Shown here one piece after another: positions 15,572 through 28,196 of a DNA stretch of 64,000 nucleotides. The notes under the pieces were generated by a model, which was not told the origin of the DNA, did not search any database, and saw only the letters and a list, made by a program, of their open reading frames with translations. Position 1 is the first letter of the stretch. Each line of letters opens with the position of its first letter. The stretch is from Coriobacterium glomerans PW2. Its GTDB lineage: Bacteria > Actinomycetota > Coriobacteriia > Coriobacteriales > Coriobacteriaceae. Location of the stretch: positions 1,240,001 to 1,304,000 of the forward strand of contig NC_015389.1 in the NCBI RefSeq assembly GCF_000195315.1, given 5' to 3'. The translations under genes and the position numbers were made by a program.

Positions 15572-17278
15572 ATGTCGCAGAATGACAGCTCATTCGATTC
15601 GCATGGCGCAAGCGCCGACCACCCCTTTGGGTCCGCGTCCCGCCCCGGCGTCAACAGGAAGCCGGAGGGAACCATCGGAGTGATCGGAACCCGGACGCCG
15701 AGCGGCACGCCTCCGATCATACCGCCACGACCCGTGCAAGCGCTTCTGCCCGAGCCGCGGGACCGCCGCACGACAGGTGGCGCCCACGCGGCGCGAAGCG
15801 GCGCTCGCGGACGGCTCGGATGCGGCAGCGGGCGGCGCGGCGGCAAAATCGCCCTTCTTCTCGTTTTGAGCTTCATCGCTCTGGTCTATGTGGGCGGCAT
15901 CGCAGCGTTTTCGCTGGTGTTCTATCCGAACACCTCGATCGCTGGCGCAGACGTCTCGCTGCTTCCCGAGGATGGTGCCGCGACGCGCATCGACTCGATG
16001 GCGAACCGCTACAGCCTCACCGTCGAGGGAATCGGATTCAAATGGAGCTATGCGCCAAAGCATGGTTCGGACCTCATCGACGCGAACGCCGCAGCCAAAA
16101 GAGCCCTCGCCGGCAACGAGCCCTACCTGTGGCCGGTCAGGCTATGGCGAGCGTGCACGGGCGCGCAAGCCGATGCGGGGACATCAACCGATCGCTCCCT
16201 GCTTTCCCCCTCCTTTGACGAGGACTCCTTCAGCAGTGATCTGAAGCAAGCGATCGATACGTTCAACGAGCACCGGAGCGGGGCGTTCGATACGCAAAGC
16301 GCGTTCGATCCCACTTCAGGTGCATTCAGCGCCGAGCGGGCGCGCGGCAACGAGAAGCTGAGCGAGAGCACCGTGGAGCGGCTCGCCAAGGAGGCGCTGT
16401 CGAGCCTTCGCGAAAGGGTTTCGCTTGAAACGAACGCATACGAGCCGCTCAAAGGGGGTGTCAGCGATGGAGACCTGCAACGGGCATGCGACGCGGCAAA
16501 TGCTCTGATAGGCACGAGCGTGACGTTCAAGCTGGCTGGCACTGAGGCCGGCGCACTCGATGGCGAGACGCTCTCGAAGTGGATCACGTTCGATGATGCC
16601 CTGTCGCCTGCCCTTGACAACGACAAGGTGAGCTCATGGGCCCATGAGCTCGCCGATACCATGAACACCGTCGGCAGCGAGCGCACCTACACCCGCCCGG
16701 ACGGCAAGGTCATCACGGTCTCAGACGGCACCTACGGCTGGAAGGTCGACGAGAAGAAGCTCGTCGAGATCGTGCAGGACGCCGTCCACACCAAGCGAAG
16801 CGGGGAAATCGATGTTCCCACCACCTCTGAAGGCGTGACCTACGCGGCGCACGGCAACCCCGACTGGGGCGCCTATGCCGATGTCGACATATCCGAGCAG
16901 CGCGCGCGCTACTTCGATGCCAGCGGCAAGCTGCTCTGGGAGACCGGGATCGTCACCGGCAAGCCCAACGGAGAGGACGATACGCCGACGGGGATCTACA
17001 AGGTCAACAAGAAGCTGCGCAACATCACGCTGGTGAGCGGCAAGATCGATCCGAATACCGGCAAGCCGGTCTATGAGAGCCCCGTGCAATACTGGATCGC
17101 CTTCGTGGACGGCTCGATCGGGTTCCATGATGCGAGCTGGCAGAGCGCCTCGGTCTACAGCGATCCGGGCGCCTACCGCTGGGCCGGCAGCCATGGCTGC
17201 ATCAACACCCCACTCGACAAGGTCATCGAGCTCTACGACATGATTCAGGTCGGCGACGCCGTCATCGTCCACAACTGA
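15572..17278 (+). CDS. Membrane-anchored L,D-transpeptidase (YkuD domain)
   Basis: 568 residues. A Pro/Arg-rich cytoplasmic N-terminus (about 1-85) is followed by one transmembrane segment (GKIALLLVLSFIALVYVGGI, about 91-110). A long extracellular region of the PG-binding type found in actinobacterial and firmicute Ldt proteins follows (about 120-420). The C-terminal YkuD domain (about 430-568) has the catalytic SHGCINT motif with Cys543 and His541. It probably makes 3-3 or attaches 4-3 type crosslinks in peptidoglycan outside the membrane. It lies 9 bp before a two-component system, suggesting that cell-wall state and signalling are linked. Confidence 0.9.
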   Translation: MSQNDSSFDSHGASADHPFGSASRPGVNRKPEGTIGVIGTRTPSGTPPIIPPRPVQALLPEPRDRRTTGGAHAARSGARGRLGCGSGRRGGKIALLLVLSFIALVYVGGIAAFSLVFYPNTSIAGADVSLLPEDGAATRIDSMANRYSLTVEGIGFKWSYAPKHGSDLIDANAAAKRALAGNEPYLWPVRLWRACTGAQADAGTSTDRSLLSPSFDEDSFSSDLKQAIDTFNEHRSGAFDTQSAFDPTSGAFSAERARGNEKLSESTVERLAKEALSSLRERVSLETNAYEPLKGGVSDGDLQRACDAANALIGTSVTFKLAGTEAGALDGETLSKWITFDDALSPALDNDKVSSWAHELADTMNTVGSERTYTRPDGKVITVSDGTYGWKVDEKKLVEIVQDAVHTKRSGEIDVPTTSEGVTYAAHGNPDWGAYADVDISEQRARYFDASGKLLWETGIVTGKPNGEDDTPTGIYKVNKKLRNITLVSGKIDPNTGKPVYESPVQYWIAFVDGSIGFHDASWQSASVYSDPGAYRWAGSHGCINTPLDKVIELYDMIQVGDAVIVHN

Positions 17279-17287
17279 GGTGAGACC

Positions 17288-18013
17288 ATGAAGCATCGGA
17301 TCTTGCTTGTCGAGGACGATCCCATCATCGTCAGCTCTCTCAGCGAGCTGTTGGTCTCCGAAGGCTACGGCGTCGAGCACGCGGCGACCCAGAACGCCGC
17401 GATCGAGCGCGTCCACGTTTTGTCTGACAGCTCGCTCGGCGCTCGGTGCGAGCAGCGGGTGGGCGCGCCGCTCAGCCTCGTCCTTCTGGATGTGACGCTC
17501 GAGGAGGGCAACGGGTTCGCGGTATGCGGGGAGATCAAGCGCGAACAGCCCGACCTCCCCGTCATCTTCCTGACCGCCTCAGATGACGAATTCAACACGG
17601 TCACAGGTCTCACGATGGGAGCGGATGACTACATCGCCAAACCATTTCGACCCCGCGAGCTGATCGCGCGCATCGCCACCGCGATCCGCCGCGCTCAACC
17701 GAATGCCCGCAAGGTCTTCTTCGGACCGCTTGCGATCGACACCGAGCGAGCGCATGTCGAGCGTGATGGCTGCGAGCTCATCTTGTCAGCCCTCGAATAT
17801 CGCCTGCTCCTTTTATTTGCCACCAATCCCGGACGACTCGTCACCCGCGAGATGATCCGCGAGGCTCTGTGGGATGATGCCGGTGCATACATCGAGGAGA
17901 ACACCTTGTCTGTCTACATCAAGCGGCTGCGCGATCGCATCGAGGATGATCCCGCACACCCGAAGATGATCACGACGGTGCGCGGCATGGGTTACAAAGC
18001 CTCTGTGGCGTGA
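17288..18013 (+). CDS. OmpR/PhoB-family response regulator
   Basis: 241 residues. A receiver domain with acidic pocket VEDD (8-11), phosphoacceptor Asp68 (LLDVTLEEGNG) and conserved Lys118 (AKPF) precedes a winged-helix DNA-binding domain (about 140-241, ending VRGMGYKASVA). The phosphoacceptor is about 15 residues later than usual because of an insertion at about 43-60 (SDSSLGARCEQRVGA). The gene overlaps the kinase gene by 4 bp. Two near-identical direct/inverted repeat elements at 19112 and 22232 are plausible binding sites. Confidence 0.92.
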   Translation: MKHRILLVEDDPIIVSSLSELLVSEGYGVEHAATQNAAIERVHVLSDSSLGARCEQRVGAPLSLVLLDVTLEEGNGFAVCGEIKREQPDLPVIFLTASDDEFNTVTGLTMGADDYIAKPFRPRELIARIATAIRRAQPNARKVFFGPLAIDTERAHVERDGCELILSALEYRLLLLFATNPGRLVTREMIREALWDDAGAYIEENTLSVYIKRLRDRIEDDPAHPKMITTVRGMGYKASVA

Positions 18014-19086
18014 TCACCATGCTGCTGCGCAACAGGGAGCTCACAGGATTCGTTCTCGCGTACGCCGCCATCGCGATCGCGGTGTGCGCCTTGGCCGCAG
18101 GCATCGACGGTCCGCCGGCGGCGCTATGGGCGGGCGCTGCGGCGCTGGCCGTCGGGGTTCTCGTCGCCGCCGAGACCCGAGCGCGCTACCGCGCTATCGC
18201 CCGCATGACCTCCGAGCTTGAGCGCGTGCTGCACGGAGGTCGCAGCCTGGATATCGATCACATGAGCGAAGGCGAGCTCGCTGTCCTCTCCAACGAGCTG
18301 AGCAAGATGGTCGCGCGACTGAATCTGACAGCCGATCGTCTCGGGCGGGAGCGCATGGCGCTCGCCGATGCGCTCGCCGACATTTCGCATCAGCTGAAGA
18401 CGCCGCTCACCTCGCTGTCTATCACCACAGAGCTCGTTCGCAAACGGCTTGTCCAGCGCGGCGGATGCTCTCAGGAGGTCGAACGTCTGCATGTGATCGA
18501 GCGGCTGCAGTTGCACATCGAGCAGCTCGTGTCGAGTCTTCTCAAACTCGCCCGACTCGATGCGGGCGCCGTCGAGCTCGCGCGGCAGCCCGTTGATGTC
18601 GAGCGGCTCGTGGCCATCGCCTTCGAGCCGCTCGCCGTCGCCTACGACATCGCCGATGTGAGCTTCGAGCATGATATCGCAGCTGGAACCACGTTTGCAG
18701 GCGATCTGTCGTGGACGGCTGAGGCCGTGACCAACATCCTCAAGAACTGCATGGAGCACACCCCGCCGGGCGGACGCGTTCGCATTCGAGCCTGGGAGGA
18801 TACCCTGGGCTGCCGAATCACGATAGAGGACAACGGGACGGGCATATCCAGCGGGGATCTCCCCCATATCTTCGAGCGCTTCTATCGCGGCAGCGATTCG
18901 GTATCGCCCGGGCATGGGGAGGGTCTCAGCCAAGTCAACCCGGTTGGCGTCGGCATCGGGCTCTCCCTTGCCAAAAGCCTCATCACCGCGCAGGACGGCA
19001 CCATCAAGGCAAGCAACATCGATGAGTCTCGCCACGAAGGTCGTGGCGCGCGCTTCGAGATCACCTTCTTCAAATCAGTCGTATAG
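18010..19086 (+). CDS. Sensor histidine kinase
   Basis: 358 residues. Two adjacent N-terminal membrane segments (about 10-30 and 38-54) have almost no extracellular loop between them. A HAMP-like linker and HisKA domain (ADISHQLKTPLTSL, His127) follow, then a HATPase_c domain (NILKNCMEHTPPGG N-box, IEDNGTGIS G1, GVGIGLSLAKSLI G2). The short sensor resembles intramembrane-sensing kinases that detect envelope damage, often with a partner permease; that role is inference here. The GTG start at 18010 overlaps the regulator stop; ATG 18019 is an alternative. Confidence 0.92.
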   Translation: MITMLLRNRELTGFVLAYAAIAIAVCALAAGIDGPPAALWAGAAALAVGVLVAAETRARYRAIARMTSELERVLHGGRSLDIDHMSEGELAVLSNELSKMVARLNLTADRLGRERMALADALADISHQLKTPLTSLSITTELVRKRLVQRGGCSQEVERLHVIERLQLHIEQLVSSLLKLARLDAGAVELARQPVDVERLVAIAFEPLAVAYDIADVSFEHDIAAGTTFAGDLSWTAEAVTNILKNCMEHTPPGGRVRIRAWEDTLGCRITIEDNGTGISSGDLPHIFERFYRGSDSVSPGHGEGLSQVNPVGVGIGLSLAKSLITAQDGTIKASNIDESRHEGRGARFEITFFKSVV

Positions 19087-19111: not shown

Positions 19112-19138
19112 TGACAGTATTGTCATGCGACGGTCATC
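19112..19138 (+). promoter_or_regulatory. Candidate response-regulator operator upstream of the large permease
   Basis: TGACA at 19112 forms an inverted repeat with TGTCA (19121-19125). A second GTCAT starts exactly 11 bp after the first (19122 and 19133), the spacing of OmpR-type half-sites. The same arrangement recurs at 22232. It lies about 72 bp before the permease start. Confidence 0.6.
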
Positions 19139-19209
19139 TCGCGCCAAGTTGCTTGCTTCATGATGATCGATGGGCGGAAACCGAGCGACTCCGGAAGAGG
19201 CGATGAGAC

Positions 19210-22143
19210 ATGGGCATATTCGGCAGATTCGCGTTGCGCTCGCTTCGGCGCAATCGCGTCCGCACGATCACCTCGATCGTCGGCGTCGCGTTGTCGTGCG
19301 CTGCGATCACCGCGATCGTGACGACGGCGTTTTGCATCAGATCCGCGCTGATCGATGCCACCGCTCGGCATGAGGGCACCTGGCAGATCGTGTTCCGCTC
19401 GCTGAGGGACGCCGATCTCGCCTCGCTTCGTCGCGATCCCCACGTGGCGCACGTCTCCCAACAGGGAGAATACGGTCTCGCGGTGACTTCGAGGCCACAA
19501 AGCGCGGGTTTTCAGCGGCGCGCGAAGCCGAATTCGAACTCCGGTGAGTATCTGAGTCTGCTCTCCGTCTCAGACGCGAATGACCGGCTCTCACCCCGGC
19601 CAGACCTCGAGTCCGGCCGCTATCCCGAGAAGCCGCATGAGATCATCGTTCCGAATGCGCTTCTGGGCATGAGAGTCCCCGCGCTCGACGATGCCCCCGG
19701 AATGGAGGACTCCGTATCGATCGCGCTGGGATCCGTGCTCCGGCTCCAAATCGGATCACGGGCGGCCGGGGCGAATGCCGCCCGCGACGACCGATCCGAG
19801 CTGAGCGATGTTTCAGACAGCGGTCCGCTCACCGTGGTCGGCGTCTACATCGCAGACGGCGGCGAGGCCGCGCAGGGAGGCTACGATGTTTTCACAGGGG
19901 CGGGCGGCGGTGCCGCTCCGCGCGCATTCAGCGCATGGATCACCACAACGGGCCTGGACACCTATGAGGACGTGCAGAGGTTCGCCGATGCCTTCGTGAG
20001 AAAAAGCGGCGCCGGGGCCCGACGGATGAGCACGCGGGCGCTCGACCGCCCGGTCGCGCTTCACGACTCGCTGCTCGAACTCGAATTCAATACCCCGTTC
20101 TCGTCCCTGTGGACTCGTCTCCTCATCGCTGCGGCGCTGCTTTGCGCAATCGTGATGGTCGCCTCCTCCGTATTCATCTTCACATCCCTCGCGATCTCGG
20201 TTTCCGAGCGCACCAAGCAGTTCGCGCTGCTCGCTTCATTGGGCGCATCGAAGCGCCAGCTGCGGCGCGTCGTGCTCGCCGAGGCGCTCGCGCTGACGCT
20301 GATCGGGGTTCCCGTCGGAGTCGCGCTCGGTCTGCTCGGAGCGAAGATGGCGCTGAGCGCGGGCAAGGCGGGAATGAGCGTGCTGTTCCAAGCCGAACTC
20401 AACGGCGCGTCGTTCTCCATCCAGCCGGTCGCGATCGGTCTGGCCGCCCTCGCCTCGCTCATAGCGGTTGCGCTCGGCGCCGCTCTCCCCGCTTGGAGGG
20501 CGTGCCGGGTATCGCCGGTTGATGCCGTGCGCGGTGTTCGCGTGAGAAGGAAGCGTCGCTCAGCGCGCCGGGGCCGCGTGCGAGGCCAGGCAGCCGTGTC
20601 GCGGTGCGATCGCGTGCGCCTGCGCATCGGGGGCGTCCCCGGGCTTCTCGCTCAACGCAACCGTCGTCGCACCGGAAGCCATGCGCGCGTCGCGACGGCG
20701 GCGCTGACGGTATCGGTGGCGGTCCTCGTAGTCTCGGCCTGGCTGTCCTCCTTCATGAACGACGTGTTGCGTGCCTCGTCGCGCACACGCGACGGCGACA
20801 TCGTGCTGTCGGTGGAGCAGACCGACCGCGTCGGCGAATCGCTCGAGACGATGCTCGCGGAGCTCGATGGGCTTCAGCGAGAGGCCGCCGGCACCGCAGG
20901 GGTCCGCTCACGGGGCACCGATACGATCATCCAGCTGAACGCGCATGTCGATGCGGAGATGCTGCAACCCGATGTCTGGCGGGACGCGGCGGCGAGATCC
21001 CCCTATCCGCAGGTCAATCTCAACTTCATGGATGACGCCGCATGGAGAAGATACCTCGACGCGCTCGGCCTGTCCGTCGGCGACTACTGCAACCCCGAGT
21101 GTCCCCTGGCGATAGCATTGAACACGAGATTGGTCGTTTGTGACGCCAACAGCTTCGCGTATCGCCCCGTCTTCAGGCACACGGGTGCCATCGACCTCGT
21201 CACCCGTGTGCGCGCCCACCGCGACGGCTTGGACTATCAGGGCCTCAGGGGGGACGGCGCGGGCGGGTGCGACGCCGTGTACGGCGCGGCCGATGGCGGC
21301 AGAACCGAGTTGACACCGTCCGGTCATGCGATTCTGTCGAGCACTCCGATCAAGATCGCAGCACTGAGCGAGCGAGCACCCGATGCGCTGGCGAGTCTTG
21401 GCAGCTCGAGTGCGATCGAGATCCTCCTGCCGCTCTCAAGTCTGCCGAAGATCGCCGCCTCGGCTCGGCACACGTCTGATGATTCGGCGGACGATGTCAC
21501 ATCTGAACCGTCCGCCCTCTCCGCAGGCGCGCTCGATCCGGCACCGTTTGGAGATGAGACCGGCTTCAAACGCACGCTGAAGACGAGCTGCTCCTTTCAA
21601 TCCGCCGACGCCGCCAAGACCGAGCGCTCGCTGCGCGAGATCATCGAGCGGGCCGGCTATGTCGATGCGGGATTCTCCTTTTCTATCGTCAACAACGCGA
21701 AGGTCAATCAGGAGGGGCGCATCGGGCTCGCGGCGGCGCAGGTGCTCGCCACAAGCTTCTCCATGCTCACGGCGCTTATCGCGGTCGCGAATGTGTTCAC
21801 TGCGATGAGCGCTTCGATCGTGCTTCGCCGACGCGAATTCGCGGTGCTGCGCTCGCTGGGCATGGACGGTCGAATGTTTCGCGCGATGATCGCGCGCGAA
21901 TGCGCGACCTGCGCATTCCGGGCGCTGACGGCGGGCCTTATGATCGCGACCGGACTATGCTATCTGATCTTCTGGGGAGTGCAGCCCGCCCTCTTGCAGT
22001 TGACGTTCTCGCTGCCCTCGCTGTTCTCCATCGGTCAGGCCTGTTCGATCGTCTTCTGCGTCACACTGGTCTCCGTCGTCTACGCTCTGCGCCGATGTCG
22101 CTCGGATGCGCCGGTGGAGACCTTGCGTGATGAGGTGCTCTGA
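19210..22143 (+). CDS. Large FtsX/MacB-type ABC transporter permease
   Basis: 977 residues with no ATPase domain. An N-terminal membrane segment (about 18-42) is followed by a ~270-residue extracytoplasmic region and an FtsX core of three helices (about 300-430). A linker segment (LLAQRNRRRTGSHARVATAAL) leads to another helix near 500, a second large extracytoplasmic region (about 520-830) and a C-terminal FtsX core (about 840-970). This duplicated architecture is that of peptide/lipid export or antimicrobial-resistance permeases. It stands alone behind the two-component system, so it must borrow an ATPase; the nearest is at 23742. GGAAGAGG precedes ATG 19210. Confidence 0.88.
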   Translation: MGIFGRFALRSLRRNRVRTITSIVGVALSCAAITAIVTTAFCIRSALIDATARHEGTWQIVFRSLRDADLASLRRDPHVAHVSQQGEYGLAVTSRPQSAGFQRRAKPNSNSGEYLSLLSVSDANDRLSPRPDLESGRYPEKPHEIIVPNALLGMRVPALDDAPGMEDSVSIALGSVLRLQIGSRAAGANAARDDRSELSDVSDSGPLTVVGVYIADGGEAAQGGYDVFTGAGGGAAPRAFSAWITTTGLDTYEDVQRFADAFVRKSGAGARRMSTRALDRPVALHDSLLELEFNTPFSSLWTRLLIAAALLCAIVMVASSVFIFTSLAISVSERTKQFALLASLGASKRQLRRVVLAEALALTLIGVPVGVALGLLGAKMALSAGKAGMSVLFQAELNGASFSIQPVAIGLAALASLIAVALGAALPAWRACRVSPVDAVRGVRVRRKRRSARRGRVRGQAAVSRCDRVRLRIGGVPGLLAQRNRRRTGSHARVATAALTVSVAVLVVSAWLSSFMNDVLRASSRTRDGDIVLSVEQTDRVGESLETMLAELDGLQREAAGTAGVRSRGTDTIIQLNAHVDAEMLQPDVWRDAAARSPYPQVNLNFMDDAAWRRYLDALGLSVGDYCNPECPLAIALNTRLVVCDANSFAYRPVFRHTGAIDLVTRVRAHRDGLDYQGLRGDGAGGCDAVYGAADGGRTELTPSGHAILSSTPIKIAALSERAPDALASLGSSSAIEILLPLSSLPKIAASARHTSDDSADDVTSEPSALSAGALDPAPFGDETGFKRTLKTSCSFQSADAAKTERSLREIIERAGYVDAGFSFSIVNNAKVNQEGRIGLAAAQVLATSFSMLTALIAVANVFTAMSASIVLRRREFAVLRSLGMDGRMFRAMIARECATCAFRALTAGLMIATGLCYLIFWGVQPALLQLTFSLPSLFSIGQACSIVFCVTLVSVVYALRRCRSDAPVETLRDEVL

Positions 22144-22231
22144 TGGGAGCACCTTGACGACGGCTTGCACCTCGGGGTTCGAGTGGCCGTAAGCGACCGA
22201 AGAGAACATGCGTCATGCGCGACATCTGAGG

Positions 22232-22258
22232 TGACAGAACAGTCATGTGAGCGTCATC
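22232..22258 (+). promoter_or_regulatory. Candidate response-regulator operator upstream of the MacA/MacB-like operon
   Basis: This repeats the element at 19112 with the same internal spacing: TGACA at 22232, GTCAT at 22242 and GTCAT at 22253 (offsets 0, 10, 21 in both). Flanking bases are also shared (TCATCT at the end). It lies about 140 bp before the adaptor gene. Confidence 0.6.
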
Positions 22259-22401
22259 TGCGAGCAACCTTGGCGAGTCACCATGCATTGAAGGGGCCAC
22301 GCTGGTTCTGAATAGGCTTGAGCCGGGCCTGCGACAGTGATCATGCTGCCAAGCGGGTTTTGGTCCGAAGCCTGATAAGGTTGTCAAGATGGGAGCGGAA
22401 C

Positions 22402-23745
22402 ATGAAGAATCGCACTCACGTCGCCTCAGCGGTCTGCGAACCGGAGGTGACCGGCACCGCCTCAGTCGACGCCGACGCGCTCGCCGCGGCTGAGAAGGCT
22501 GCCCGCTCTGATGCAGAGGCGTTCGCCAATCTCAAGCGGCACCGCGCCGAGCGCAGACGGCGCAGACTCATCAAGCGGGCGATCGTGGCTGCGGTGCTCG
22601 TCGCGCTCATCGGACTCGCCGCCGTAGGTATATCGCTAGCGACGCACGGCTCGACGCCTTCCGTCCAGCTTGTGACCGATCAAGTTGCAGCCGGAACGTT
22701 CACAAGCCAGATCGAAGACCGTGGTGCGCTCGAGGCGAGATCCTCGATCGCGGTCTCGCCGACGGTCGACGGCACCATCGCGGAGGTCCGCGTCTCTGCG
22801 GGCCAAACGGTCAACAAGGGCGATGTGCTCATGATCATCTCCAACCCGCAGATCGATACCGCGTTGAAAGACGCGGAGCGCGAACTCAAGGGCGCCGAAG
22901 CCGATCTTGTCTCAGCGAACAAGATCGCCGGACGGCCCCGGGGCGCCGACGCAGCCGACAGCGGCGGTACAGCCGACGCGCTCGCCGTCGCTCAGCGCGC
23001 CGTCGAGACGGCCCGAGCCGCACGCGACGCCGCACGAGCCAAAGTCTGTGAGAAGACGGTGCGCGCTCCGGCGGCGGGCAGCATCATCTCTATGAACGTG
23101 CAGGTCGGTGCCCGTCTATCGGAGCTCTCTTCAACCGGAGGCAGCTCCGATCCGCTCATGCAGATCGCCGATCTGTCTCAGATGAAACTTCGGCTGCAAA
23201 TCGACGAGGAAGACATCGCCTCTGTCGTCGTCGATCAGATTGCAGACATCACCTTTCCCGCATTCGAGGGCCTCAAGCTCCAGGGGAAGGTCGCAAACAT
23301 AGCCTCCTGCGCCTCGACAGACTCCGCGGCGAGCACGTCCATGAGCTATAACGGCTCCGCGGCGAACACATCCACCTTCGCCGTCGACCTGCTGATAGCC
23401 GAGCCAGACCCGCGCCTCAAGCCGGGCATGAGCGCTGAGGCGACACTCGTGACGAACCGCTTGGACAACGTTGTCATGGTTCCGCTCGTCTCGCTGCAGT
23501 CAGACGGCGGTACGGACTTTGTGATGGTGCAAGACGATCCGGAACAGAAGGGGGGCCGCCGTCAAGAGGTGCACATCTATGCCAGGAACGACGATGTCGC
23601 CGTCATCGGGAGCGCTCAGCCGAGGCAAGCGGGCTCCGATGAGTCGGGTATGGATGAGGCGCCGCTCAGAGATGGCGACTTACTCGTGATCGCGACCGGA
23701 TCCGGCGCACGCGGGACCACGGGAAAGACGGAGGTCGCCTCATGA
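22402..23745 (+). CDS. HlyD/MacA-type efflux adaptor
   Basis: 447 residues. The cytoplasmic N-terminus is followed by one membrane anchor (AIVAAVLVALIGLAAVGISLA, about 68-88). A biotinyl-lipoyl-like hairpin (IAVSPTVDGTIAEVRVSAGQTVNKGDVLMII, about 115-145), an Ala/Arg-rich coiled coil (about 150-215), its return lipoyl half (KTVRAPAAGSIISMNVQVGA) and a beta-barrel (about 250-390) follow. In Gram-positive bacteria such adaptors pair with MacB-like permeases to export peptides or lipids. The stop overlaps the ATPase start by 4 bp. GGGAG precedes ATG 22402; the frame extends upstream to 22318 without a better start. Confidence 0.9.
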   Translation: MKNRTHVASAVCEPEVTGTASVDADALAAAEKAARSDAEAFANLKRHRAERRRRRLIKRAIVAAVLVALIGLAAVGISLATHGSTPSVQLVTDQVAAGTFTSQIEDRGALEARSSIAVSPTVDGTIAEVRVSAGQTVNKGDVLMIISNPQIDTALKDAERELKGAEADLVSANKIAGRPRGADAADSGGTADALAVAQRAVETARAARDAARAKVCEKTVRAPAAGSIISMNVQVGARLSELSSTGGSSDPLMQIADLSQMKLRLQIDEEDIASVVVDQIADITFPAFEGLKLQGKVANIASCASTDSAASTSMSYNGSAANTSTFAVDLLIAEPDPRLKPGMSAEATLVTNRLDNVVMVPLVSLQSDGGTDFVMVQDDPEQKGGRRQEVHIYARNDDVAVIGSAQPRQAGSDESGMDEAPLRDGDLLVIATGSGARGTTGKTEVAS

Positions 23746-24563
23746 GACCCGCCATAGAGCTGAGGGCGATCCATCGGATCTTCGAGACGGAAGCCGGCTT
23801 CGCCCATGTTCTTCACAACATCTCGCTGACCGTCGACACCGGCGAGTTCATCGCTATCACCGGACCATCGGGCTCGGGCAAATCGACGCTCATGAATATT
23901 CTCGGCTGCCTGGACACACCGACATCGGGAACCTATCTGCTCGAAGGCCTCGATGTCGCCAAGCTGAACGACGACGAACTCGCCGAGGTTCGCGGCGGGC
24001 GCATCGGCTTCGTGTTCCAGAGCTTCAACCTGCTTCCGCGCATGAGCGTCATCGACAACGTCATGCTGCCGCTCTCCTACACGGACTGCCGCCGCGCCGA
24101 CCGGGAGCGGCGCGCCATACACGCGCTGCGAGCCGTGGAGCTTCCCGTTGACCACTGCGATCACCGGACGAATCAACTCTCGGGCGGCCAGATGCAGCGC
24201 GTCGCCATAGCCCGCGCGCTCGTGAGAGACCCTGCCATCATCTTGGCCGACGAACCCACCGGCAATCTGGACAGCTCCACGGGAGCCGCTGTGCTCGCCA
24301 CCTTCCATCGTCTCAGGGCGCAGGGCAAGACGATCGTGCTCATCACCCACGATGAGCGAATCGCTGCCGTCGCGGATCGCACCATCGAGATCCGCGACGG
24401 CAGACTCCGCGCGAGCGCCACGCGGCCCCCGCTCGAGAGCCCGACCGAATCGGATGACGCTCCGAGAGCCGCCGAAGCGGGCGTCGGCGGCATGAATTCG
24501 GATTGCGATCTGGCGAATCTCGTCCCACGCGTCTATCCCACCTTGCAGGGAGCGCGGCCATGA
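23742..24563 (+). CDS. ABC transporter ATP-binding protein (MacB/LolD type)
   Basis: 273 residues. Walker A is GPSGSGKSTLMN (about 41), followed by Q-loop FQSFNLLPRM, signature LSGGQMQRVAIARAL, Walker B IILADEPTGNLD and the H-loop LITHDE. About 45 residues after the H-loop form a non-conserved extension rich in Asp/Glu. It overlaps both neighbours by 4 bp (ATGA), so adaptor, ATPase and permease are translationally coupled. It may also energise the orphan permease at 19210. Confidence 0.95.
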   Translation: MRPAIELRAIHRIFETEAGFAHVLHNISLTVDTGEFIAITGPSGSGKSTLMNILGCLDTPTSGTYLLEGLDVAKLNDDELAEVRGGRIGFVFQSFNLLPRMSVIDNVMLPLSYTDCRRADRERRAIHALRAVELPVDHCDHRTNQLSGGQMQRVAIARALVRDPAIILADEPTGNLDSSTGAAVLATFHRLRAQGKTIVLITHDERIAAVADRTIEIRDGRLRASATRPPLESPTESDDAPRAAEAGVGGMNSDCDLANLVPRVYPTLQGARP

Positions 24564-25792
24564 CCATGCACGATCTCATCTCCTCCGCCCTGCGCGCGTT
24601 GGGTGCCAACCGCGGCAGAAGTCTGCTCACCATCTCGGGCATCGTGATCGGCATCACGGCCGTCATCGCTATGACCTCTCTTATCGGCGGCGTGCGCAAT
24701 TATATGATGGGCTCACTCGGCCTCAACGCATCCAGGCTGCTGAACATCTCCGGGAATTTCCAGATGTCGCAGAAGGATCTCAAGAAGCTCGAGCGGCTCG
24801 TTCCCGATTACGAGTTCGTCAAGGGGCGCGTCTACGGATCCGGCGAGCAGCGCGTCAACGGAGTCTCCATGCAGGTCAGCATCAACGGAACCGATGCGGA
24901 GTATCTCAACCTCACCGGAGCCGTGAAGATCGCTGACGGCAGGATGTTCAACCCCTCCGAGGAAGTCGCCGCAGCACGAGTGATCATCATCGGCAAAGGT
25001 GCCGTCAAGATGCTGTTCGGAGACGCGGAAATCGACGCCGTCGGCAAGACGGTAAGCATCGGAAGTCGCGACTACACGATCGTCGGCGTCGACGAGGCCG
25101 GCACCGTCAGCGCGGGTCAAGACCCCGCCTTACTGGCATATGTGCCGCTCAAGACCTGCATACGCGACTATCCAGACACGAGAGGATCCGAGAACCAGGT
25201 GATGGGGCTCGTTCGACAGGGCGCGGACCTCGATGCGGTCGCCGACGAGACGAAGACCCAGCTCGCCAAGATCAAGGGTATCGCTGAAAAGGACATCGAT
25301 CAGTCGATCACCATCTCCTCGATAAAGTCGCAGATGGATTCCATGAATATGTTCATGGGAGCCTTTCAGCTCATCATGGGCACGGTCGCCGGCATCTCCC
25401 TGCTGGTCGGAGGTATCGGCATCATGAATATGATGCTGACCAATGTCACGGAGCGCATCCGCGAGATCGGCGTGCGACGCTCACTCGGCGCGAGGCGGCA
25501 TGATATCACAACGCAGTTCCTCGTCGAATCTGCGGTGCTGTGCGTCAGCGGCGGCGTCATCGGAACGGTTCTCGGTTACATGATCGCGTTCGGGATCGCG
25601 GCGGCTGCGAGCGCCATCGGCTCTTCGTATCTGTCCGCATCCGGGCAGAGCCTGAACATCCAGCCGGATTTCTCGCTGGTGACTATCGCGCTGGCCGTCG
25701 GTCTGAGCGTCTTCATCGGGATTGTCTTCGGGTTCTATCCCGCCAGACGCGCAGCCCGGCTCGATCCCGTCGAGAGCCTTCGCTACCAGTAG
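24560..25792 (+). CDS. MacB-like ABC transporter permease
   Basis: 410 residues. It has an N-terminal helix (SLLTISGIVIGITAVIAMTSLI, about 20-42), a MacB periplasmic core domain (about 45-275) and three C-terminal helices of the FtsX domain (about 285-405) including VTERIREIGVRRSLGARRHDI, the coupling segment. ATG 24560 overlaps the ATPase stop. With the adaptor and ATPase it forms a tripartite Gram-positive exporter; the substrate cannot be told from sequence. Confidence 0.93.
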   Translation: MTMHDLISSALRALGANRGRSLLTISGIVIGITAVIAMTSLIGGVRNYMMGSLGLNASRLLNISGNFQMSQKDLKKLERLVPDYEFVKGRVYGSGEQRVNGVSMQVSINGTDAEYLNLTGAVKIADGRMFNPSEEVAAARVIIIGKGAVKMLFGDAEIDAVGKTVSIGSRDYTIVGVDEAGTVSAGQDPALLAYVPLKTCIRDYPDTRGSENQVMGLVRQGADLDAVADETKTQLAKIKGIAEKDIDQSITISSIKSQMDSMNMFMGAFQLIMGTVAGISLLVGGIGIMNMMLTNVTERIREIGVRRSLGARRHDITTQFLVESAVLCVSGGVIGTVLGYMIAFGIAAAASAIGSSYLSASGQSLNIQPDFSLVTIALAVGLSVFIGIVFGFYPARRAARLDPVESLRYQ

Positions 25793-26915: not shown

Positions 26916-28196
26916 TCAGCCCTGCGTGCCGGTCTCATCGCGCCCGTCGGTGCGGCGCTTGCGGATCAGATCCTCTGGAGACACGGTTATCCCGCCTGTC
27001 GGACGATGCGAGCCCCTGGTGGACACTCCCCTGCCTCCCGAAGCTTCGTCGGCTCCACTCCTCTGAGACGAACGGCTCGCCAGAAGCCGCCCGATCGTGC
27101 GATCCCAGCGGGCGTGGATGCTCGCGTTGTGCGGGCTCTTGAGACCGAGCAGCGGCGCGGCGATGATCGTGGGCGCGATGAAGGTGATCAGACGCCAGAG
27201 CAGATAGCCCGCCGTTGCCGCCGACCCGAAAAACTGTCCGAGGAACAAGGCGAAGCCGCCTTCCGCCCCGCCGGTGCCACCGGGCAGGGGGACCGCCGAT
27301 GAGAGCAGCTGCACGAATGCTGCGGCCGCCATCACCGAGAAGAAGTCGATATCGTGCTGACCGAAGGCGAGCATGAGGAAGAACGGCACGAGATAGAAGA
27401 AGGCGAGTTGAAGCAGGGTGATCACGACGGTGAGCAGCATGGAGGAGGTGTGTCCGGCTGCCAGTTTGAACTTGCGCGAGAACGAGTAGATCTCCTCGTC
27501 GACGAACTCCCGCCAGTTCTCGATCTTGTCCTCAGCGACCCCGACGCGCGCCATGAGCGCGATGATCCAGCATGCGACCCGCGTCACGGTTTTGGGCATG
27601 AGCGCGATCGCGAAGATCGTGAGCAAGACAAGCACGTGTCCACCGAAACTGAACACGCACAACAGCATCATGTCGCCATAGCGCGCGGTGAAGAACGGCA
27701 TCCGCGCGATGAGCAGGATCGCGCCCCACGCCACCAGACCGAACTGATAGACGATGAAGCGGGTGAACTGCACCGCACCCGCTTCGCCGACGTTCTGGCC
27801 CGCCTTGGTGAGCCGGTAGATCTGCGCCGGCGTCGAGCCCATCATCATAGGGGTAAGATTGCCGAAGAAGATGCCGCTCGCCTCGACGGAGATGAGATCT
27901 CGGATGCCCACCGGCGAATCGGGGTCGAGCCAGACGGCGATCGCGTAGGCAGCGATGCCGAAAATGAGGTAGAGCAGCATGAACAGACAGGCGACGAGAA
28001 GCCAGGGGATCCGCACCGTCTGCATCGCTTCGATGAACTGGGCGATCTGACCGCTCACCAGAAGATAGATCACGAAGGCGAGCAACGCGACCCCGATGAA
28101 GATCGCCCCCCTGCGCGCGCTCTTCCGCTCATCCCGACCTGAAGCCTGAACGGATACCTGGGGCTTGGGCGCAGAGGGTTTGGACGAATCTGACAT
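26916..28196 (-). CDS. Flippase-like integral membrane protein (YbhN/LPG_synthase_TM family)
   Basis: 426 residues with about eight membrane helices between residues 30 and 345. The characteristic segments ISVEASGIFFGNLTPMMMGSTPAQIYRL (about 103-130) and SSAVPLPGGTGGAEGGFALF (about 285-305) match the UPF0104/AglD family. That family includes the flippase domain of lysyl-phosphatidylglycerol synthase. A charged cytoplasmic C-terminus (about 355-426) is not conserved. There is no lysyl-transferase domain, so it probably moves a lipid-linked intermediate. A -10-like TACAAT lies upstream on the minus strand (complement of 28289-28294). Confidence 0.85.
   Translation of the reverse strand: MSDSSKPSAPKPQVSVQASGRDERKSARRGAIFIGVALLAFVIYLLVSGQIAQFIEAMQTVRIPWLLVACLFMLLYLIFGIAAYAIAVWLDPDSPVGIRDLISVEASGIFFGNLTPMMMGSTPAQIYRLTKAGQNVGEAGAVQFTRFIVYQFGLVAWGAILLIARMPFFTARYGDMMLLCVFSFGGHVLVLLTIFAIALMPKTVTRVACWIIALMARVGVAEDKIENWREFVDEEIYSFSRKFKLAAGHTSSMLLTVVITLLQLAFFYLVPFFLMLAFGQHDIDFFSVMAAAAFVQLLSSAVPLPGGTGGAEGGFALFLGQFFGSAATAGYLLWRLITFIAPTIIAAPLLGLKSPHNASIHARWDRTIGRLLASRSSQRSGADEASGGRGVSTRGSHRPTGGITVSPEDLIRKRRTDGRDETGTQG

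Follow-up and report, generated by a model that had tools for sequence, protein, structure and literature searches.

Two sites in the window analysed here (64,000 nucleotides of the Coriobacterium glomerans PW2 genome) very likely act as operators and activator-dependent promoters of the response regulator encoded at 17288–18013, and would belong to a regulon of three units. The sites, their geometry and conservation, their linkage with the kinase and the prediction of three regulon members were obtained by computation. The features of the window are listed below, with positions counted from its first letter.

15572–17278, forward strand: L,D-transpeptidase with YkuD and PG_binding_4 domains (Pfam YkuD 8.4e-21; synteny)
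17288–18013, forward strand: OmpR/PhoB-family response regulator, 241 aa (Pfam Response_reg, Trans_reg_C)
18010–19086, forward strand: histidine kinase, 358 aa, HisKA and HATPase_c (Pfam; hydropathy)
19112–19137, forward strand: predicted operator 1, dyad TGACA-N4-TGTCA and GTCAT direct repeat at offset 21
19144–19148, forward strand: predicted degenerate fourth half-site CCAAG, offset 32 (alignment of relatives, which have GCAAG)
19159–19164, forward strand: predicted −10 box CATGAT, offset 47 (−10 position conserved in Eggerthellaceae and Firmicutes)
19210–22143, forward strand: ATPase-less FtsX-family permease, 977 aa (Pfam FtsX; tree; model and fold search)
22232–22257, forward strand: predicted operator 2, dyad TGACA-N4-AGTCA and GTCAT direct repeat at offset 21
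22264–22268, forward strand: predicted degenerate fourth half-site GCAAC, offset 32 (alignment of relatives)
22279–22284, forward strand: predicted −10 box CACCAT (weak), offset 47 (position conserved in relatives)
22402–23745, forward strand: MacA/HlyD-like membrane fusion protein (Pfam HlyD_D23, HlyD_3; NCBIfam RND_mfp above cut-off)
23742–24563, forward strand: ABC ATPase, MacB/LolD-like (Pfam ABC_tran)
24560–25792, forward strand: MacB-like permease, MacB_PCD and FtsX (Pfam)

Genome-Wide Search for the Predicted Operator

The pattern TGACA-N5-GTCAT-N6-GTCAT was exact at 19112–19137 (TGACAGTATTGTCATGCGACGGTCAT) and 22232–22257 (TGACAGAACAGTCATGTGAGCGTCAT), so the site pair named in a preliminary description of this DNA was borne out. 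When the 64-kb window and the whole genome (2,115,681 bases, a single contig) were searched, these were the only two exact matches. Allowing two mismatches gave three further places in the whole genome. The 26-bp pattern was picked post hoc, with both sites already seen, and an independent profile is therefore the weightier test.

The 67-bp profile (A1/R1) was built from 24 sites of other species only and contained no window sequence. Against the whole genome, its best match was at genome position 466297 (E = 1.8e-7, 32.5 bits), followed by the window sites 22232 (E = 1.2e-5, 26.6 bits) and 19112 (E = 3.6e-4, 21.9 bits). One extra match was the reverse strand of 466297, and the next independent match had E = 9.3. 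The genome thus has three predicted regulon sites, rather than the two that had been thought to define the regulon; the third came to light through the other-species profile. A second profile, made from Firmicutes sites (R2), did not find the C. glomerans sites at E ≤ 0.01, which indicates that the operators of the two lineages have diverged outside the half-sites.

The third operator lies 793 kb from the window sites, about 140 bp upstream of an ATPase gene (ATPase1) that is followed by the gene for a 986-aa permease; operator and genes together span L137:6298-10075 (genome 466297–470074). This ATPase1 is 79% identical to the ATPase beside the two-component system in relatives. On the upstream side of the third operator there is also a further FtsX permease that lacks an ATPase (977 aa, L137:3299-6232), together with an ABC transporter whose ATPase is short (L137:1971-2621).

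In Coriobacteriaceae relatives the usual order is two-component genes, then ATPase1, then a long permease, with the operator just upstream of ATPase1, beside the orthologous two-component genes. At orthologous two-component loci of Coriobacteriaceae, Eggerthellaceae, and Firmicutes the element stands about 85 bp upstream of the ATPase–permease genes. In C. glomerans, the ATPase1–permease pair is at 466 kb and the two-component genes directly adjoin a permease alone.

These results bear on a rival reading, in which the pair of window sites arose by chance or by recent duplication and has no regulatory role. The sites are alike (both GTCATCT), they are the sole exact matches in the genome, and the pattern was selected after the fact. 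However, both were recovered by a profile from other species, and the element and its geometry are kept upstream of an orthologous operon in two phyla. A chance pair is ruled out by the profile and the cross-species conservation, and chance or duplication as a whole is extremely improbable.

Some sites of the same type were seen at other loci. Collinsella intestinalis and a close relative have an extra operator (L176:5284 and L175:5824). The gene behind it encodes a C39-like cysteine peptidase for which a membrane anchor is predicted, and this peptidase is a possible additional regulon member. One Firmicutes genome (G075, that of locus L098) had four Firmicutes-type operators (C2:168485, C2:184052, C21:58337, C38:18228), and the other Firmicutes genomes tested had one or two each.

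Predicted Operator Architecture and Promoter Geometry

The 11-bp spacing of the half-sites had been said to fit tandem OmpR-type binding. This stands for offsets 10 and 21, the only pair in an 11-bp direct repeat; the half-sites at offsets 0 and 10 are inverted with respect to each other, and the upstream part is a Bce/Gra-like dyad. As read from its sequence, the predicted operator combines this dyad with a direct repeat that resembles a Pho box and covers the −35 position. A search of the available literature for a description of such a composite operator found nothing.

Eggerthellaceae and Firmicutes sequences were aligned by anchoring on the dyad alone (offsets 0–13). Among the 36 dyad-anchored sequences, 34 had the GTCAY half-site at offset 21 and 21 had it at offset 32, the latter including nearly all of the Firmicutes; at any other offset it appeared in 2 at most. 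The dyad was perfect in 37 of 53 upstream regions of these two groups, versus 0.7% of shuffles, and its Eggerthellaceae form was TTACA-N4-TGTAA-like. The Firmicutes showed a −10-like box (TA.AAT) at offset 47 with a mean of 4.8 out of 6 matches, the next best being 2.9. The start codon followed at a constant distance from offset 0 (medians 83–89 bp). In Coriobacteriaceae the fourth half-site was a conserved GCAAG, and the best −10 match was at offset 50, with offset 47 second. The degenerate fourth half-site and the −10-like box at offset 47 are, by prediction, parts of the operator unit.

The −10 boxes of the window were poor matches, especially at site 2, and a search of the window sites for a consensus sigma-70 promoter gave none. 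Its absence is expected if the promoters are activator-dependent. The same geometry weighs on the possibility that the linked regulator is a repressor freed by the signal, which we consider unlikely. The operator does cover the −35 region, but it lies upstream of and over the −35 and not over the −10 position. The −10 box follows the last half-site at a fixed distance of 10 bp and a good −35 hexamer is absent; a site so placed, with these two properties, is the arrangement of PhoB-type activation.

The Response Regulator as Probable Ligand

It is almost certain that the predicted operators are bound by the linked OmpR/PhoB-family regulator, as the preliminary description had proposed. Three lines of evidence give this strong support: the presence and absence of sites among genomes, the conservation at orthologous loci of two phyla, and the lack of a close paralogue. 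Among 67 Coriobacteriaceae genomes, a strong site was found in 35 of the 38 with the kinase, whereas the 29 that lack the kinase had none (Fisher p = 6e-16, a value that overstates independence because the genomes are related). Three kinase-bearing genomes had no strong full site (G029, G031, and G049). A hit in G008, 34% identical to the kinase, was left out of the orthologue count. The 29 kinase-less genomes had zero sites even at E = 0.05, and the pattern on that side was free of exceptions.

The next paralogue of the regulator in the genome was only 39% identical to it. The C-terminal recognition region of the regulator was conserved in 98 orthologue rows. The best matches among solved structures were MtrA and RegX3, and PhoB and MtrA were among the best family matches.

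Of 30 relatives, 10 had a dyad-only site in front of the regulator gene (loci L043, L044, L046, L123, L124, L131, L039, L040, L086, and L132), compared with 0.3% of shuffles, which suggests autoregulation in those relatives. Before the regulator gene of the window itself, no dyad-only site was found.

The E. coli Pho box is CTGTCAT repeated with a 4-bp spacer, and OmpR/PhoB regulators bind direct repeats (PMC4832192). The window sites agree with this form in half-site and spacing, with GTCA half-sites in an 11-bp direct repeat at offsets 10 and 21. As in PhoB and mycobacterial PhoP promoters, this repeat lies over a −35 position that has no good hexamer. Unlike those promoters, the C. glomerans operator has an extra inverted half-site upstream, forming a dyad that is foreign to Pho boxes, and the genes linked to it are transporter genes and not phosphate genes. 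The regulator is also no PhoB equivalog; its 155.6 bits are far below the cut-off of 296.2. Beyond the window sites, the profile finds only the ATPase1–permease operon in the genome, and strong sites are missing from all family genomes without the linked kinase. This presence–absence pattern rules out a phosphate regulon, and it is very unlikely that the sites are Pho boxes of a phosphate-responsive PhoB/PhoP.

Kinase and Neighboring Genes

Hydropathy placed two transmembrane segments of the kinase near residues 14–32 and 36–54, with few residues between them. Two segments with so minimal a loop are typical of intramembrane sensing, and the kinase probably perceives its signal inside the membrane or by way of a partner. 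The L,D-transpeptidase gene ends 9 bp before the regulator gene, and its linkage to the two-component system held in each of the 32 Coriobacteriaceae loci that were examined. A lysylphosphatidylglycerol synthase TM-region domain (MprF-like flippase part) is encoded close to the export genes, at 26916–28196 on the reverse strand.

Predicted Target Transporters and Related Systems

The window permease was modelled with a mean pLDDT of 76.5; it has about 8 helices, and two of its domains are large and extracytoplasmic. The fold search gave E. coli YbbAP as the best match, then YtrF, BceB, LolCDE, and MacB. These matches place the permease in the broad superfamily of BceB, with a layout that is not BceB-like. 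In the tree, the window permease had a long branch and grouped with both permeases encoded at the 466-kb locus (SH-aLRT 96). It is therefore most likely a lineage-specific paralogue of the ATPase1-linked permease rather than an ancient orphan. The earlier term "orphan permease" fits the absence of an adjacent ATPase, but by the tree the protein is a derived paralogue, and a conserved ATPase1–permease operon exists 793 kb away. With no adjacent ATPase and a long branch, the activity of the window permease is uncertain.

The locus shares several properties with the Bce-type modules BceRS–BceAB, GraRS–VraFG, and PsdRS–PsdAB. The kinase spans the membrane twice and is nearly devoid of an extracytoplasmic domain. 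In most relatives, though not in C. glomerans, where only a permease is adjacent, the two-component genes stand beside an ABC transporter with an FtsX-type permease. GraR/BceR-type sites are inverted repeats (PMC3128592); that source, citing de Been 2008, reports a AAGTGACA-N4-TGTCATTT dyad upstream of vraFG. For Lacticaseibacillus Bce-type sites the consensus is AnnTTACnAnnnnGTnAG (PMC10858260). The operator dyad found here (TGACA-N4-TGTCA) agrees with TNACA-N4-TGTNA. Unlike the Bce-type sites, the present operator adds GTCA half-sites in an 11-bp direct repeat. The permeases differ too. BceB has 10 helices, and a single large extracellular domain lies between helices 7 and 8, whereas the permease here is fused and closest in fold to YbbAP, with about 8 helices and two extracytoplasmic domains. 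In C. glomerans, furthermore, the permease near the two-component genes lacks an ATPase, and there is an additional MacAB-like operon. Full BceAB-type membership is ruled out by the permease architecture.

The operon behind operator 2 resembles MacAB exporters, as it combines a membrane fusion protein, an ATPase and a MacB_PCD/FtsX permease. E. coli MacB fuses the last two, whereas here separate genes encode them in a Gram-positive organism, and the match to the fused form was low (PRK10535, 165–245 bits against a cut-off of 966). About half of the Coriobacteriaceae loci also have a fusion protein–ATPase–MacB operon. A perfect dyad before the MacA-like gene was found in only 2 of 15 relatives, which rules out a general operator at this position. 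As the operator is not generally conserved there, site 2 may be a recent gain.

Proposed Mechanism

The kinase, with its almost absent extracytoplasmic domain, would probably be signalled to by the membrane or by a transporter. The phosphorylated regulator would then occupy the upstream dyad (offsets 0 and 10) as well as the direct-repeat half-sites over the −35 position (offset 21 and the degenerate offset 32). Bound in this way, it would bring RNA polymerase to the promoter, with the −10 box at offset 47. Three units would be switched on: the ATPase-less permease (19210), the MacA–ATPase–MacB operon (22402) and the ATPase1–permease operon 793 kb away. We infer binding and activation by the regulator at these operators from the sequence comparisons.

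The function may be the sensing or removal of envelope-active or peptide substances. This envelope role is suggested by the kinase type, the neighboring L,D-transpeptidase, the transporter types and the operator before the Collinsella C39-like peptidase. The system had been described as an autonomous envelope-stress export circuit. Such a circuit is plausible as a hypothesis in view of the kinase, the L,D-transpeptidase, and the MacAB- and YbbAP-like transporters; "autonomous" is doubtful, since one of the three targets is far away and the permease of the window lacks its own ATPase.

Implications

A more speculative reading, somewhat less likely than not, is that the locus is one form of a widespread two-component/ABC module, which has a YbbAP-like permease unlike that of Bce systems and a composite operator found from Firmicutes to Coriobacteriia. 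A single OmpR/PhoB-type regulator would read both the inverted pair and the 11-bp direct repeats, and the co-regulated ATPase-less permease paralogue would perhaps be a sensor or modulator and not a transporter. The direct-repeat arrangement of OmpR/PhoB sites and the inverted-repeat arrangement of BceR/GraR sites here occur in one operator of fixed geometry, kept across two phyla. With both arrangements in one operator, the reading of mixed-orientation half-sites by a regulator becomes directly testable. The operator can also be used to look for regulon members of an envelope module, so far uncharacterised, that is common in gut Coriobacteriia and Clostridia.
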